The notes under the pieces were generated by a model. It did not search any database. It was given only the letters and a program-made list of their open reading frames with translations, and had not been told where the DNA came from. The position numbers and the translations under genes are program-made. Shown piece after piece: positions 2 to 6,216 of a stretch of DNA of 6,216 bases; position 1 is the stretch's first letter, and each line of letters starts with the position of its first letter. Location of the stretch: assembly GCA_001799195.1 (NCBI GenBank), contig MGSU01000255.1, positions 1 to 6,216 of the forward strand. The letters are read 5' to 3'. This DNA is from Deltaproteobacteria bacterium RIFOXYA12_FULL_61_11 (GTDB lineage: Bacteria; Bdellovibrionota_F; JAHFAK01; YA12-FULL-61-11).

Positions 2-1228
2 GTGCCCGGAACCGACTTTGGTGCCGTCATCGAGGACGTGACGGCCGATGTGAAGGTCGTGCCCGGCGTACGGGCTCGCTTCAAGGATGACCTGGTCGGG
101 CCGGAAACGAGGACCAAGGGATCGGTCTCTCCGCAGAAAAGCACGACCGTGACCCTCGAGGAACAACAAACATCCATGACCGAACTCGGCCTCGTCTGGA
201 GCAAGCCGCTTCCTATCTTGGCAGACAGGGTGTTCCCGTTCCCAGATGGGACGGATACCGATGCCGTGGCAGTGGTGACCGACGTGCCTTCCCGGGATAC
301 GAGGGTCGGATCGCTGGTGCGGGTCTACTCACCCACGGCACAGGTCCCTGAGAAGCCGGTTCGATCGTTCTTCCTGCCGCATCCGGTGACCTCTGCGATT
401 GTGGAGGGGAAGAACCTCTACGTTGGGACGGCTTGCACCGCAACCAGCACCGCGCACATCATCGCGTACGACCTGGAGGAGTCGGGTACCTCGCCGGTGG
501 AGCTGAGCAGGGTGGCGTTAGTGCGAGCGGGCAATAACCTGTATGAGGGCTGTGATGATGAGGTTGCCGAGATGGTACTCCGGGGCGATATCCTGACGGT
601 GCGTGCAGGTAGAGTGGCCGTTCGGGCCCTCGAGGTGTCGGATCCCACTGCGATGCACGAGATCAAACCGCGTTCTCAATCATGGATGGTTAGGTTCGGC
701 CACGTTGTGGATTTCGACCTCACGGATGATCATCTCATGATTGGCGATGGATACTTTTCCGATATCATCGAAGCCCTCGGCGCATCGAGTGGGCGCCTCG
801 AAGAGGGCCGGACCCTTGAGATGAAGATCGAGGATCGTAGTTCGGGTTCGGGCAATTTTATCCATTTCTTGCCGCACGGAAGGCTGGTGGTCCACTGGTC
901 CACGTATGGTGAGGACGAGCAGAACGCGGTATCGGTCTTCGATTTCGACTCGTTTGCCGAATTGAAGAGGATCGAACTACAACAATTCATTGAATTCGAT
1001 CGCGTTCCGCCGCAGGGCGAGACGGAGTTCTTCGGCCATTCCGGGGAGGCCTTGTACCGTCTGGAGGTTTCCGACGATGCCGGCATCTCCCTCCACGGGC
1101 CGATGATCGTGCCGGAGTTGATCATGAGCCTCTGCACCACGCCCTCGACCTTCGCCGTGGCTTTTGGCGACCGGGGAGTCGTGTTCTTCTCGAGATCGAG
1201 ACGGGCGCCGACCCCCAGCGGTTTTTGA
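2..1228 (+). CDS. Hypothetical protein with beta-propeller-like character, probably 5'-partial
   Basis: I do not recognise this 408-residue reading frame as a named family. It is rich in short beta strands spaced by turns and acidic loops, many ending in patterns such as RVYSP (about 107-111), IIAYDLEE (153-160), VRALEVSDP (207-215), VSVFDFDSF (310-318) and LYRLEVSD (351-358). Such spacing suggests a YncE/WD-like beta-propeller, but that is inference. No catalytic motif, signal peptide or membrane helix is visible in this window. The frame is open from the first bases with only a GTG at position 2, so the true start is probably upstream. An in-frame ATG at 176 (residue 59, where MTELGLVW begins) is an alternative, with a GAGGAA about 13 nt before it. 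The C-terminus (SRSRRAPTPSGF) is unlike the rest and stops just before a DUF4143 scar, so the protein may be truncated or frameshifted near 1190. Confidence 0.6.
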   Translation: MPGTDFGAVIEDVTADVKVVPGVRARFKDDLVGPETRTKGSVSPQKSTTVTLEEQQTSMTELGLVWSKPLPILADRVFPFPDGTDTDAVAVVTDVPSRDTRVGSLVRVYSPTAQVPEKPVRSFFLPHPVTSAIVEGKNLYVGTACTATSTAHIIAYDLEESGTSPVELSRVALVRAGNNLYEGCDDEVAEMVLRGDILTVRAGRVAVRALEVSDPTAMHEIKPRSQSWMVRFGHVVDFDLTDDHLMIGDGYFSDIIEALGASSGRLEEGRTLEMKIEDRSSGSGNFIHFLPHGRLVVHWSTYGEDEQNAVSVFDFDSFAELKRIELQQFIEFDRVPPQGETEFFGHSGEALYRLEVSDDAGISLHGPMIVPELIMSLCTTPSTFAVAFGDRGVVFFSRSRRAPTPSGF

Positions 1229-1230
1229 AC

Positions 1231-1284
1231 GACTCTTTCACCGTCTTGCCTTTTTACGGCCTGGCAAGGGTCCTGCAAGCTATG
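1231..1284 (+). pseudogene. Scar: C-terminal remnant of a third DUF4143 ATPase
   Basis: Read in the frame of position 1231, this stretch gives DSFTVLPFYGLARVLQA. The last residues of the intact ATPase at 2830-3975 are ETITALPLHGLTRVLQA, so 10 of 17 residues are identical with no gap. At the DNA level 39 of 51 bases agree, including 25 of 27 across 1256-1282 versus 3944-3970. The alignment may reach back to about 1210 (DPQRF against SQEYR). The stop codon is lost: the frame runs on to a TAG at 1321. No Walker motifs or other part of the gene lie upstream on this strand, because the orphan gene ending at 1228 occupies that space. I infer a decayed copy of the same ATPase subfamily as the plus-strand gene. 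Confidence 0.7.
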
Positions 1285-1352
1285 GGTGGTTCCTCGTTTT
1301 TCTGGATCGAGCCCCGCTCGTAGCATATGTCCACAGGTCGTGGTCGCTTGGG

Positions 1353-2640: not shown

Positions 2641-2775
2641 AATCAAGGTCTGGTGCCGACCTGGCAGAGAGCCCACGTGGTCGGCGTGACTTCCAAGAGA
2701 CTGAAGCAGCGCCCTGCGTGATCAGGACCGCTCCTGCAAGCCAATCCGCCGCTGCTGCGTATCAACGAAATGCAA
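2641..2775. other. Intergenic stretch, no intact gene; possible gene debris
   Basis: GC content returns to that of coding DNA here, but no convincing intact gene is present on either strand. Two weak signals are visible. On the minus strand, about 2643-2710 reads GRCFSLLEVTPTTWALCQVG, which loosely resembles the strand-helix segment that follows the N-terminus of PIN toxins. On the plus strand, TCCTGCAAGC at 2732-2741 repeats the sequence at the 3' end of the second ATPase gene and in the scar at 1271-1280. Both are treated as hypotheses in the findings. Confidence 0.3.
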
Positions 2776-2829: not shown

Positions 2830-3975
2830 ATGATCGAACGTCTACAAGCGCTCGCCCGGCTGGACCAGGCCTTCCGCATCCACCCGGCGGTGGTGGTCCT
2901 CGGGCCGCGGCAATGCGGGAAGACCACGCTGGCGCGGGGCTTTGCTCAGGAAAAACCCGGCGCGTATTTTGATCTCGAGAATCCGGTCGACTTGCAGCGT
3001 CTGCAGGCGCCCATGTTGGCATTGGACCCGCTCCGGGGCTTGGTGGTCATCGACGAAGCCCAACGTTTGCCGGAGCTATGGCCGGTCCTGCGGGTCCTGT
3101 GCGATCGATTGGATAACCCGGCCTGCTTTCTGCTGCTCGGGTCCGCTTCGCCCGAACTGGTCAGGGGGGCTTCGGAATCTCTGGCCGGACGGCTCGGTTT
3201 CCTCGACCTTTCCGGGTTCACGCTGGAAGAGGTCGGTGCCGAGCGGCTCTTCGATCGTTGGCTGCGCGGCGGTTTCCCCCGCTCGTTCTTGGCGCCGGAT
3301 GACCGGGCCAGCCTCGACTGGCGCGACGCCTTCATCCGGACTTTTCTCGAACGGGACCTGGCCCAGCTCGGGGTGGCCTTACCCCCCGAGACCATGCGAC
3401 GGTTATGGACCATGGTGGCTCATTATCATGGCCGGATCTGGAACGCCGCCCAGTTCGCGCGCTCCCTCGGGGTCACCGAGCCGACGGTGCGGCGTTATCT
3501 CGACGTGCTCGCCGGCACGCACATGGTCAGGGTGTTGCAACCCTGGTACGTGAACCTGCGCAAGCGCCAGGTCAAGGCCCCGAAGGTCTACCTGCGCGAC
3601 AGCGGCCTCCTGCACGCCTTTCTCGGACTCCGGACCATGGCGGACCTCCAAGGGCATCCCATGGTTGGCGCCTCATGGGAAGGGCTGGTGCTCGAACAAC
3701 TCTTCGCTCTGACCCGTTCCAGGGACCTCTTCTTCTGGGCCACCCACGGTGGTGCGGAACTGGATATGGTGCTCACGGTGAACGGCAAGACCTACGGGGT
3801 CGAGTGCAAATACGCCGATGCGCCGGGCACGACCCGTTCGATGCACGTCGCCATCGCGGATCTTGGTCTCGAGCACCTCTTCGTGGTCTATCCCGGCAGC
3901 CAGGAATACCGCCTCGCCGAGACCATCACCGCCCTGCCCCTCCACGGCCTGACCAGGGTCCTGCAAGCTACGTAA
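2830..3975 (+). CDS. AAA_14/DUF4143 ATPase, copy 2
   Basis: A 381-residue member of the same ATPase family as the divergent neighbour but from a different branch. Walker A is GPRQCGKTT (25-33) and Walker B is LVVIDEAQ (71-78, D75 and E76). These are followed by LLGSAS (102-107), LAGR (118-121), GGFPR (147-151) and FLERDL (172-177). A helix-turn-helix-like segment spans about 205-227. The DUF4143 part has YVNLRKRQVKAPKVYLRDSGLL (240-261), then E284, D312 and E325-x-K327. All expected nucleotide-binding residues are present, so the protein is probably functional as an ATPase; its cellular role is unknown. The ATG at 2830 gives the typical MIERL start about 24 residues before Walker A. The start region is unusual, with a palindrome covering the likely ribosome-binding site. 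The DNA turns AT-rich just after the stop, and a truncated vapC lies immediately beyond on the other strand. Confidence 0.95.
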   Translation: MIERLQALARLDQAFRIHPAVVVLGPRQCGKTTLARGFAQEKPGAYFDLENPVDLQRLQAPMLALDPLRGLVVIDEAQRLPELWPVLRVLCDRLDNPACFLLLGSASPELVRGASESLAGRLGFLDLSGFTLEEVGAERLFDRWLRGGFPRSFLAPDDRASLDWRDAFIRTFLERDLAQLGVALPPETMRRLWTMVAHYHGRIWNAAQFARSLGVTEPTVRRYLDVLAGTHMVRVLQPWYVNLRKRQVKAPKVYLRDSGLLHAFLGLRTMADLQGHPMVGASWEGLVLEQLFALTRSRDLFFWATHGGAELDMVLTVNGKTYGVECKYADAPGTTRSMHVAIADLGLEHLFVVYPGSQEYRLAETITALPLHGLTRVLQAT

Positions 3976-4013: not shown

Positions 4014-4094
4014 CGTTTGACGCAGGGGATCGGTCTGCGGTTCCCCGAGCATGACCGCAAGCAGGGCCGAGGTATCGACGTAGAGGAGGTTCAT
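4014..4094 (-). pseudogene. Truncated PIN-domain toxin (VapC), N-terminus only
   Basis: From the ATG at 4094 the minus strand reads MNLLYVDTSALLAVMLGEP and then about ten more residues ending near PLRQT. This is the classic first strand and helix of a PIN-domain ribonuclease, including the first metal-binding aspartate (D7 in YVDTSAL). A complete VapC is about 125-140 residues. Here homology ends near 4014, where the DNA becomes AT-rich and the frame runs on into sequence antisense to the ATPase gene, to a stop at 3888. The remaining acidic residues of the active site are absent, so no working nuclease can be made. The start overlaps the stop of the preceding frame as ATGA, typical of vapBC operons. 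The break coincides with the flank of ATPase copy 2, suggesting that gene arrived by insertion or replacement. Confidence 0.7.
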
Positions 4095-4670: not shown

Positions 4671-5516
4671 TCAGCCGCAACGGTCAAGCAGCGCCGTCAC
4701 GAAACCGACCACGTCCGCCTGGATTTCATCGTCCGGTCTCCCCGTGATGAACTCGGCGACGCGCATTGGGCCGATGCCCTCTGGATCGGTGAAGTCGCGT
4801 CTCAGCACGTCGAGGGCTTTACGGGCCTCCTCGTCGTCGAGCAGAGGTTGGAGCTTAGCGACGACGTCCTTTATGCCGGCTCCGAAGTTGCGGACGATGT
4901 AGAACAGGTCGTAGGCGTCTTTGTTCTCACCACGGCTGTCGAAGGCGAGCGCCTTGAGCACGACGTAGGCCCCGGCTCCGCAGACCCAGACGTCGCGCTC
5001 AGCCTTCTCACCGAAGAGCGTGCGCCCCTGGAGGGTAATGTGCTGCCGGTCTCGAAATGCGCAGCGAAGGCCGGGGGCGATGATCGCCGCGAAGTCAGGC
5101 TCGATGTCGCGGAGCTTGCCTGGGCGGTCGCCTTCGCGCGAAGGCGGAATGAGAAAGTCGACCGTTACGGTGCCGGAGTTGGTGATCGTCCACCGCTGGC
5201 GGGTCGGGTTCCCGTCGTCGTTCTTGTCCATCGCGAAGCCGGCATCGCGCAGGCGCTCGGTGAGCTTGCGGTAGCGCCCCTCGTCGAGCAGCGCGAGTTG
5301 CAGGCCAACGTCGAGGTCCATCGTACCCACGTGGGTATCGACATCCTGCGGCAGCGTCGTCTGATCGACGATGAGGGAGGGCACGAGCCCACCGACGATG
5401 ATGAGGTCGTCCATCATGTCGCCGAGCTTGGTCGCGACATAGAGGCAGGTCGCTCGCACGAGCTCGACCTGCTCGCTCTTATACTCTGACGCTTGTTTGG
5501 GCTTGTCAGCCATCAT
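4671..5516 (-). CDS. AbiEii-like nucleotidyltransferase (putative type IV toxin)
   Basis: A 281-residue protein of the minimal-nucleotidyltransferase/AbiEii group. The strand-turn IIVGGLVPSLI (39-49) carries the Gly-Gly of the fold. GTMDLDVGL (64-72) supplies the metal-binding pair D67 and D69, and VTVDFLIPP (117-125) supplies a third acidic residue, D120. The C-terminal helices have VLKALAF (186-192, K188) and the conserved KDAYDL signature (199-204). AbiEii-type enzymes transfer nucleotides to RNA, tRNA in characterised cases, and halt growth; the substrate here is unknown. The first ATG (5516) lies 1 nt after a GGAGG and the second (5513) lies 4 nt after it, so the second start may be used. 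The gene overlaps the upstream winged-helix gene by 11 nt, implying translational coupling and a two-gene operon. Confidence 0.87.
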   Translation of the reverse strand: MMADKPKQASEYKSEQVELVRATCLYVATKLGDMMDDLIIVGGLVPSLIVDQTTLPQDVDTHVGTMDLDVGLQLALLDEGRYRKLTERLRDAGFAMDKNDDGNPTRQRWTITNSGTVTVDFLIPPSREGDRPGKLRDIEPDFAAIIAPGLRCAFRDRQHITLQGRTLFGEKAERDVWVCGAGAYVVLKALAFDSRGENKDAYDLFYIVRNFGAGIKDVVAKLQPLLDDEEARKALDVLRRDFTDPEGIGPMRVAEFITGRPDDEIQADVVGFVTALLDRCG

Positions 5517-6216
5517 GCCTCCAGGTCAGCAGCTCGGTGCGGAGGTGTTCGGCAGCCTCGGGAGCCCGTTCGGGGTGTTCCTTGAGGTCGAGGTAAACCT
5601 GTACCGGGTGAACGCATCGAACGCCGTCCTTCTCGACGGCGCCCTGGAACACGCCCGCGTCGTTCGGTACCACCAGCCAGAGATTCGCGCCGCGCGGTTC
5701 CTCCCGACATCCGAGCCGGTCGAGGAGCGCGGGCGACGGGTCCGTCGGCAGGTAGAGCGTCGCGATCCGGAACGCGGCAAAGCGGGTTAGTGCCCACGCG
5801 CCGGCGAGGCCGGTGGCCGCATGCTCAATCCCCTGCTCCAAAAGGGTGTCCCCAACGAACTGCAGGAGGGCGTCCCCCGATCGCGCGGCGACATGGCCCT
5901 GGTGGATGGTGTGTTTGGAGAACTGATATACTTCACGCCAGGCGTCGAGTAGCAGCGCGGGGTCCTTCGGACGGACAGCGCCACTTTCCTCACGAACGAG
6001 ATAACCCTCGCGGTCGAGTCGCCCGACAATCCGGCTGACGTACCCCTCCGTCATATCGGTGGCACGAGCGATCTGCCTCTGGGTGAGCGACTCGGACGCG
6101 TGGATCAGCAGCCAGCGTATGACCCGCGCGCTCTTCGGCGCGAAGGTGTTTTGCGGCCGTCCCGCGGAGCGGAAGCGATTGGGTCTGCCATCGACAATCA
6201 CGCGGATGCCGGGGGC
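5506..6216 (-). CDS. Winged-helix AbiEi-like protein (putative type IV antitoxin/repressor), 5' end at window edge
   Basis: At least 231 residues counted from a GTG at 6201, but the frame stays open to the window edge (reading APGIR before VIVDGRP), so the true start is probably outside. The N-terminal part, FAPKSARVIRWLL followed by SLTQRQIARATDMTEGYVSR and LDREGYLVR (about 20-70), is a clear winged helix-turn-helix. The C-terminal half ends with CVHPVQVYLDLKEHPERAPE and AAEHLRTELL, which resembles the closing segment of AbiEi-family antitoxins. In AbiE systems this protein binds operator DNA and represses the operon, countering the nucleotidyltransferase encoded downstream. Its last codons overlap the start of that gene, the expected antitoxin-first order. 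The operator and promoter should lie beyond the right end of the window. Antitoxin function is inferred from context and family resemblance. Confidence 0.78.
   Translation of the reverse strand, partial: APGIRVIVDGRPNRFRSAGRPQNTFAPKSARVIRWLLIHASESLTQRQIARATDMTEGYVSRIVGRLDREGYLVREESGAVRPKDPALLLDAWREVYQFSKHTIHQGHVAARSGDALLQFVGDTLLEQGIEHAATGLAGAWALTRFAAFRIATLYLPTDPSPALLDRLGCREEPRGANLWLVVPNDAGVFQGAVEKDGVRCVHPVQVYLDLKEHPERAPEAAEHLRTELLTWRHDG

Follow-up and report, generated by a model that had tools for sequence, protein, structure and literature searches.

A probable remnant of a DUF4143 ATPase gene 3' end behind an orphan gene

Between the orphan gene X and the intact ATPase gene B lies a stretch of 45 bases that resembles the 3' end of a second intact ATPase gene, C. 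The question raised by this locus is how such a fragment came to be there, and whether it testifies to a third ATPase gene. The window analyzed is an entire contig (C255, 6216 bp) of a genome assembly that comprises 342 contigs and is 87% complete; its features are collected in Table 1. Because the products of genes B and C are only 35% identical, their sequences place them in two separate lineages of the AAA_14/DUF4143 family. Farther along the window, the minus strand carries at 4671-6216 a gene pair resembling an AbiE type IV toxin-antitoxin system, in which a nucleotidyltransferase-like protein (weak match to PF12281) is encoded beside an HTH/AbiEi_2 protein. At 4015-4094, also on the minus strand, are the first ∼26 residues of an apparent PIN toxin (MNLLYVDTSALLAVMLGEPQTDPLRQ; Pfam PIN E value of only 0.11), truncated at the beginning of an A+T-rich stretch that follows gene C.

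Table 1. Positions of genes, repeats and the fragment in the 6216-bp window
Feature	Position	Strand	Remarks
Orphan gene X	2..1228	+	5' end beyond contig; no family, no relative found
Coding-like frame-1 stretch holding the fragment (LLEIETGADPQRFLNDSFTVLPFYGLARVLQAMGGSSFFWIEPRS)	1180..1322	+	codon signal; ends with TAG at 1320-1322
Fragment	1238..1282	+	putative decayed copy of the plus-strand ATPase 3' end; core 1256-1282
Gene B, intact AAA_14/DUF4143 ATPase, 391 aa	1353..2528	-	PF13635, E 5e-52
TCCTGCAAGC, third occurrence	2732..2741	+	also at 1271 and 3959; suggestive only
Perfect 17-nt inverted repeat, 9-nt loop	2776..2818		just upstream of gene C; type found before most relatives
Gene C, intact AAA_14/DUF4143 ATPase, 381 aa	2830..3975	+	Pfam PF13635, E 8.5e-44; PF13173, E 3.9e-20
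Counterpart of the fragment	3926..3970	+	3' end of intact gene C, codons for TALPLHGLTRVLQA

When the fragment region is aligned with the 3' end of gene C, as the earlier note had proposed, 37 of 45 bases (82%) are identical. Within the core, 25 of 27 bases agree with positions 3944-3970, and the final 16 bases are identical. Read on the plus strand in frame 1, the fragment peptide DSFTVLPFYGLARVLQA matches ETITALPLHGLTRVLQA at 10 of 17 residues; both this count and that for the core had been given previously and are correct. A blastn search of positions 1150-1340 against the whole 4.64-Mb assembly returned the query itself and then the pair formed by the fragment and gene C, with an E value of 9.5e-6. 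The next match had an E value of 0.12, so blastn gives no sign of the 45 bases elsewhere in the assembly. No direct repeat in the window is stronger than this pair, and none of 500 dinucleotide shuffles reached a score of 50 (mean 20.9, maximum 36).

The edges of the similarity are abrupt on both sides, the left one falling at 1238. Extending the comparison to the 26 residues before the fragment and the matching residues of gene C gave a score that was reached by 8% of shuffles (p 0.08). Likewise, a profile of the DUF4143 C terminus (built from the C-terminal 110 residues of 112 relatives, with gene C left out) did not report the fragment. Formally, then, no alignment above background extends beyond the 17 residues, an outcome that the earlier note had named as refuting its interpretation. 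Since a deletion remnant may be this short, we do not consider the lack of wider similarity to be decisive.

The case for a remnant is made with 15-17 codons only, and a similarity of this length, in a gene X whose frame-1 tail is coding-like throughout, could in principle reflect a chance likeness between the C terminus of X itself and the end of gene C. We regard this explanation as very improbable, however, given the E value obtained in the whole assembly, the outcome of the shuffle test and the run of 16 consecutive identical bases.

Gene X offers few clues of its own. It has no Pfam or NCBIfam family and no PDB match, and no relative was detected in 386 genomes, in the two genomes that represent its phylum, or by a contig scan sensitive to close relatives only. 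An AlphaFold model made without an alignment was useless (pLDDT 33). The codon signal of gene X lies in frame 2 until about position 1150; between about 1180 and 1322 it is frame 1 that carries the signal. This shift suggests that the gene probably carries a frameshift, or an assembly error, near 1165-1185. If so, the fragment is probably read in frame with the old frame of gene X, on to the TAG at 1320. The frame-1 coding score of positions 1180-1237 is equaled by just 0.4% of wrong-frame windows. Because frame 1 is already coding-like upstream of the match, part of the fragment could be the C terminus of X itself. When internal repeats were sought, the tail of gene X aligned with the gene no better than shuffles did (p 0.29).

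Which member of the pair is the source, and which the copy, can be judged from the conservation of the family. An alignment of 113 relatives yields a C-terminal box (ITALPL-like) with the consensus [IV][TS][VA][LVI]P[LIV], and the codons for this box lie inside the repeat shared by the fragment and gene C. The version in the fragment, FTVLPF, fits the consensus to a degree equaled by only 0.1% of the 6-mers from all six frames of the window, which makes it unlikely that the box was derived by chance from X. In addition, the 18 bases that flank the core within the 45-base match are identical at 12 positions (p 4e-4). Because the box is inside the repeat and the match continues outside the core, an origin of the fragment from the ATPase is favored over an origin from X. 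Furthermore, six of the eight differences are a T in the fragment where the gene has a C, and the first box position has changed from I to F, a residue seen at this position in none of the 113 relatives. With both the T-for-C changes and the unprecedented F on its side, the fragment is the drifting, decayed member of the pair.

The interpretation that we lean toward is that positions 1238-1282 are what is left, without function, of the 3' end of a DUF4143 ATPase gene of the gene C lineage, probably through deletion of a duplicate. Gene C, or its 3' part, would have been duplicated, and the copy would once have been located between genes X and B. A deletion would then have taken all of it except the final ∼45-55 bases, and these would have drifted subsequently. 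We infer that the copy formerly at this site was of full length. For the remnant we propose no role beyond that of a chance C-terminal extension of gene X.

A remnant of this kind would not be exceptional, since deletions that leave only a 3' end occur in the DUF4143 ATPase family. In Thermus thermophilus plasmids, a close relative of the window ATPases is found intact in several settings. A 3'-end piece of ∼515 bp (up to 519 bp) of one ATPase gene is present in pAA2-2c, pTTJL1802 and TTHNAR1 plasmid 3, and a 173-bp 3'-end piece is present in pVV8 and pTthSNM6-6c. These pieces occupy one locus behind a DUF433/PIN-like pair (L178-L182, L133), and all end 46 bp past the stop codon. The shorter form equals the longer one minus a deletion of ∼508 bp, through which the PIN-like gene in front lost its end as well. 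As a result, in strain SNM6-6 the open reading frame of the PIN-like toxin now continues into the ATPase tail piece. A further example comes from L065, where the decayed 3' half of a near-identical gene (ADFWATHGGAQLDLLTRVAAKISVVPLESIPRLAHSL; 86-88% DNA identity) lies 2.6 kb behind an intact one. The existence of the Thermus and L065 remnants makes the remnant scenario realistic for this family.

An alternative is that there never was a third gene and that just ∼45 bases of the 3' end of gene C were copied to this site, as might happen in the course of break repair. The two abrupt edges and the failure to find any other part of gene C are in keeping with such an ectopic copy, as are the pieces of neighboring genes, 44-66 bp in length, that are repeated near other family members (L115, L128, L137). 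In those cases, however, a piece of the host gene lies behind the ATPase, and the reverse direction was not seen; moreover, longer deletion remnants are documented in the family. We consider this short copying event improbable, though far less so than a chance likeness.

The earlier note had described the fragment as the scar of a third ATPase gene and had concluded that such genes had been acquired here on at least three occasions. A 3'-end origin is supported as the most likely one by the box, the one-sided decay and the precedents elsewhere, but a whole third gene goes beyond what the data show. The count of three gains is not supported either. The fragment carries the tail of gene C itself, which is variable among relatives, so it belongs to the gene C lineage and does not represent an independent gain; only two lineages are shown at the locus.

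The palindrome upstream of gene C raises another possibility. Most relatives of gene C, from many phyla, are closely preceded by a palindrome of the type CCTTGAAAAT...ATTTTCAAGG. An inverted repeat with a score of at least 9 was found within 90 bp before the ATG in 64 of 111 relatives (L011-L132), compared with 0 shuffled copies. The left edge of the palindrome is at about -52, and it often lies over a TATAAT-like -10 element. It is a candidate for an autoregulation operator or for the end of a unit. Across settings, one limit of the conserved unit coincides with the outer edge of the palindrome, at about -50 to -80, and the other lies at about the stop codon.

If gene C and its palindrome were inserted behind X as a unit, duplicating the target at both ends, then the similarity between the two sites would be an insertion-type direct repeat. 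The C-terminal codons and the stop codon of gene C would have come from duplicated X sequence, and gene B would have entered later. We think this course of events doubtful. It would be consistent with gene X reading in frame 1 into the fragment and with the occurrence of TCCTGCAAGC directly upstream of the gene C palindrome as well. However, this 10-mer is all of the window repeat that is present at the palindrome. A distance of 1.55 kb, in which gene B lies, separates the left copy from gene C downstream, no palindrome end follows the left copy, and X would have to supply the conserved box by chance, against the odds given above for the box and for the bases outside the core. Because the repeat holds the box codons and the left copy does not adjoin the unit, insertion is ranked second, behind the deletion remnant. 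Compared with other family members, gene C has an ordinary tail (35th percentile), unlike L061, whose tail is a repeat of upstream DNA and falls at the 4th percentile. The flanks of gene B share one 10-mer only.

The family as a whole provides evidence on both sides of the insertion question. Comparing the 600 bp upstream of each gene with the 600 bp downstream, we found direct repeats of at least 45 bits flanking 11 of 97 relatives, as against 1 of 112 other open reading frames at the same loci and 0 of 194 cross-locus pairs. Short repeats with a score of at least 12 were found for 14 of 107 relatives, whereas 0.7 are expected from cross-locus pairs. Relative to same-locus control open reading frames, however, this excess is modest (5/100 for the controls at score 12; 10/107 relatives versus 3/100 controls at score 14). 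An independent set of 34 genes included two with short repeats at a score of at least 14, with a null of 0.

In three cases that favor insertion (L061, 27 of 27 bp; L109, 17 of 18; L101, 14 of 14), the right copy is found at the stop codon and the left copy immediately before the palindrome. The L109 repeat is at the start codon of the downstream gene, read as hsdR, and that of L101 is where the upstream gene stops. In L128, L115 and L137, the DNA behind the ATPase repeats parts of the host gene that lies upstream, in the last case as judged by reading the translated repeat. Altogether, direct repeats of 14 to ∼300 bp flank the DUF4143 genes of L061, L101, L109, L049, L128, L115, L137, L095 and L129, and several of these have a right copy that is at the stop codon or derives from an upstream host gene.

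Some repeat cases have other causes. The repeats of L066 look by inspection to be of the REP/MITE type, that of L119 is an operator copy, and that of L102 probably represents the ends of a circular contig. The idea of a clean target-site duplication, in which the inner edges would be constant, was also rejected for the family, as the edges vary. The Thermus loci, which have been rearranged by IS elements, gave no clean empty site, and when one was sought for L049, the sole relative in its genus had no match.

These observations extend beyond the window. The AAA_14/DUF4143 gene together with its palindrome might form a compact mobile unit that duplicates its target on insertion, the window repeat being one such insertion repeat, but we hold this to be unlikely. 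Similarly tentative is the idea that the last codons and the stop codon of such a unit are sometimes borrowed from the target. DUF4143 genes number 29-44 per 2.2-2.6-Mb genome in four genomes (G001, G132, G157, G357), of which G001 belongs to the same class as the genome of the window, and even among strains of a single species their settings differ. The literature searched mentions DUF4143 only once, in a table row (PMC4406477), and COG1373 only in lists, including a list of horizontally transferred shared genes (PMC10782964); it gives no account of DUF4143/COG1373 mobility or of the palindrome.

Gene remnants are ordinary, and by itself the fragment is ordinary gene debris, by which a single loss in a fast-changing locus is dated. 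It also serves as a pointer to a very abundant and almost unstudied family, whose genes are more often flanked by repeats than other genes are. Given the remnants, the varied settings, the palindrome and the flanking repeats, autonomous movement of DUF4143 genes becomes a testable question, and this possible mobility is the part worth following.

Insertion sequences generate target-site direct repeats, which are two short copies flanking the unit. The DUF4143 cases are alike in that two short copies flank a unit occurring in many genomic settings. Unlike target-site repeats, however, the copies range from 14 to ∼300 bp, their inner edges vary, and the window repeat contains sequence of the element. 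A comparison with intact AAA_14/DUF4143 ATPases (PF13173/PF13635, COG1373; predicted) shows that the end of the fragment carries the C-terminal ITALPL-like box, whereas ATPase, HTH and nuclease-like domains are all missing and no profile matches. The Thermus remnants resemble the window fragment in that an AAA_14/DUF4143 gene has been reduced to its 3' end, which follows another gene and begins abruptly on the left. The Thermus pieces measure 173-519 bp and share 95-98% identity with intact copies from other strains, which makes their gene origin and the deletion certain, whereas the window fragment, with 82% identity over 45 bp, has no orthologous locus among the genomes searched.
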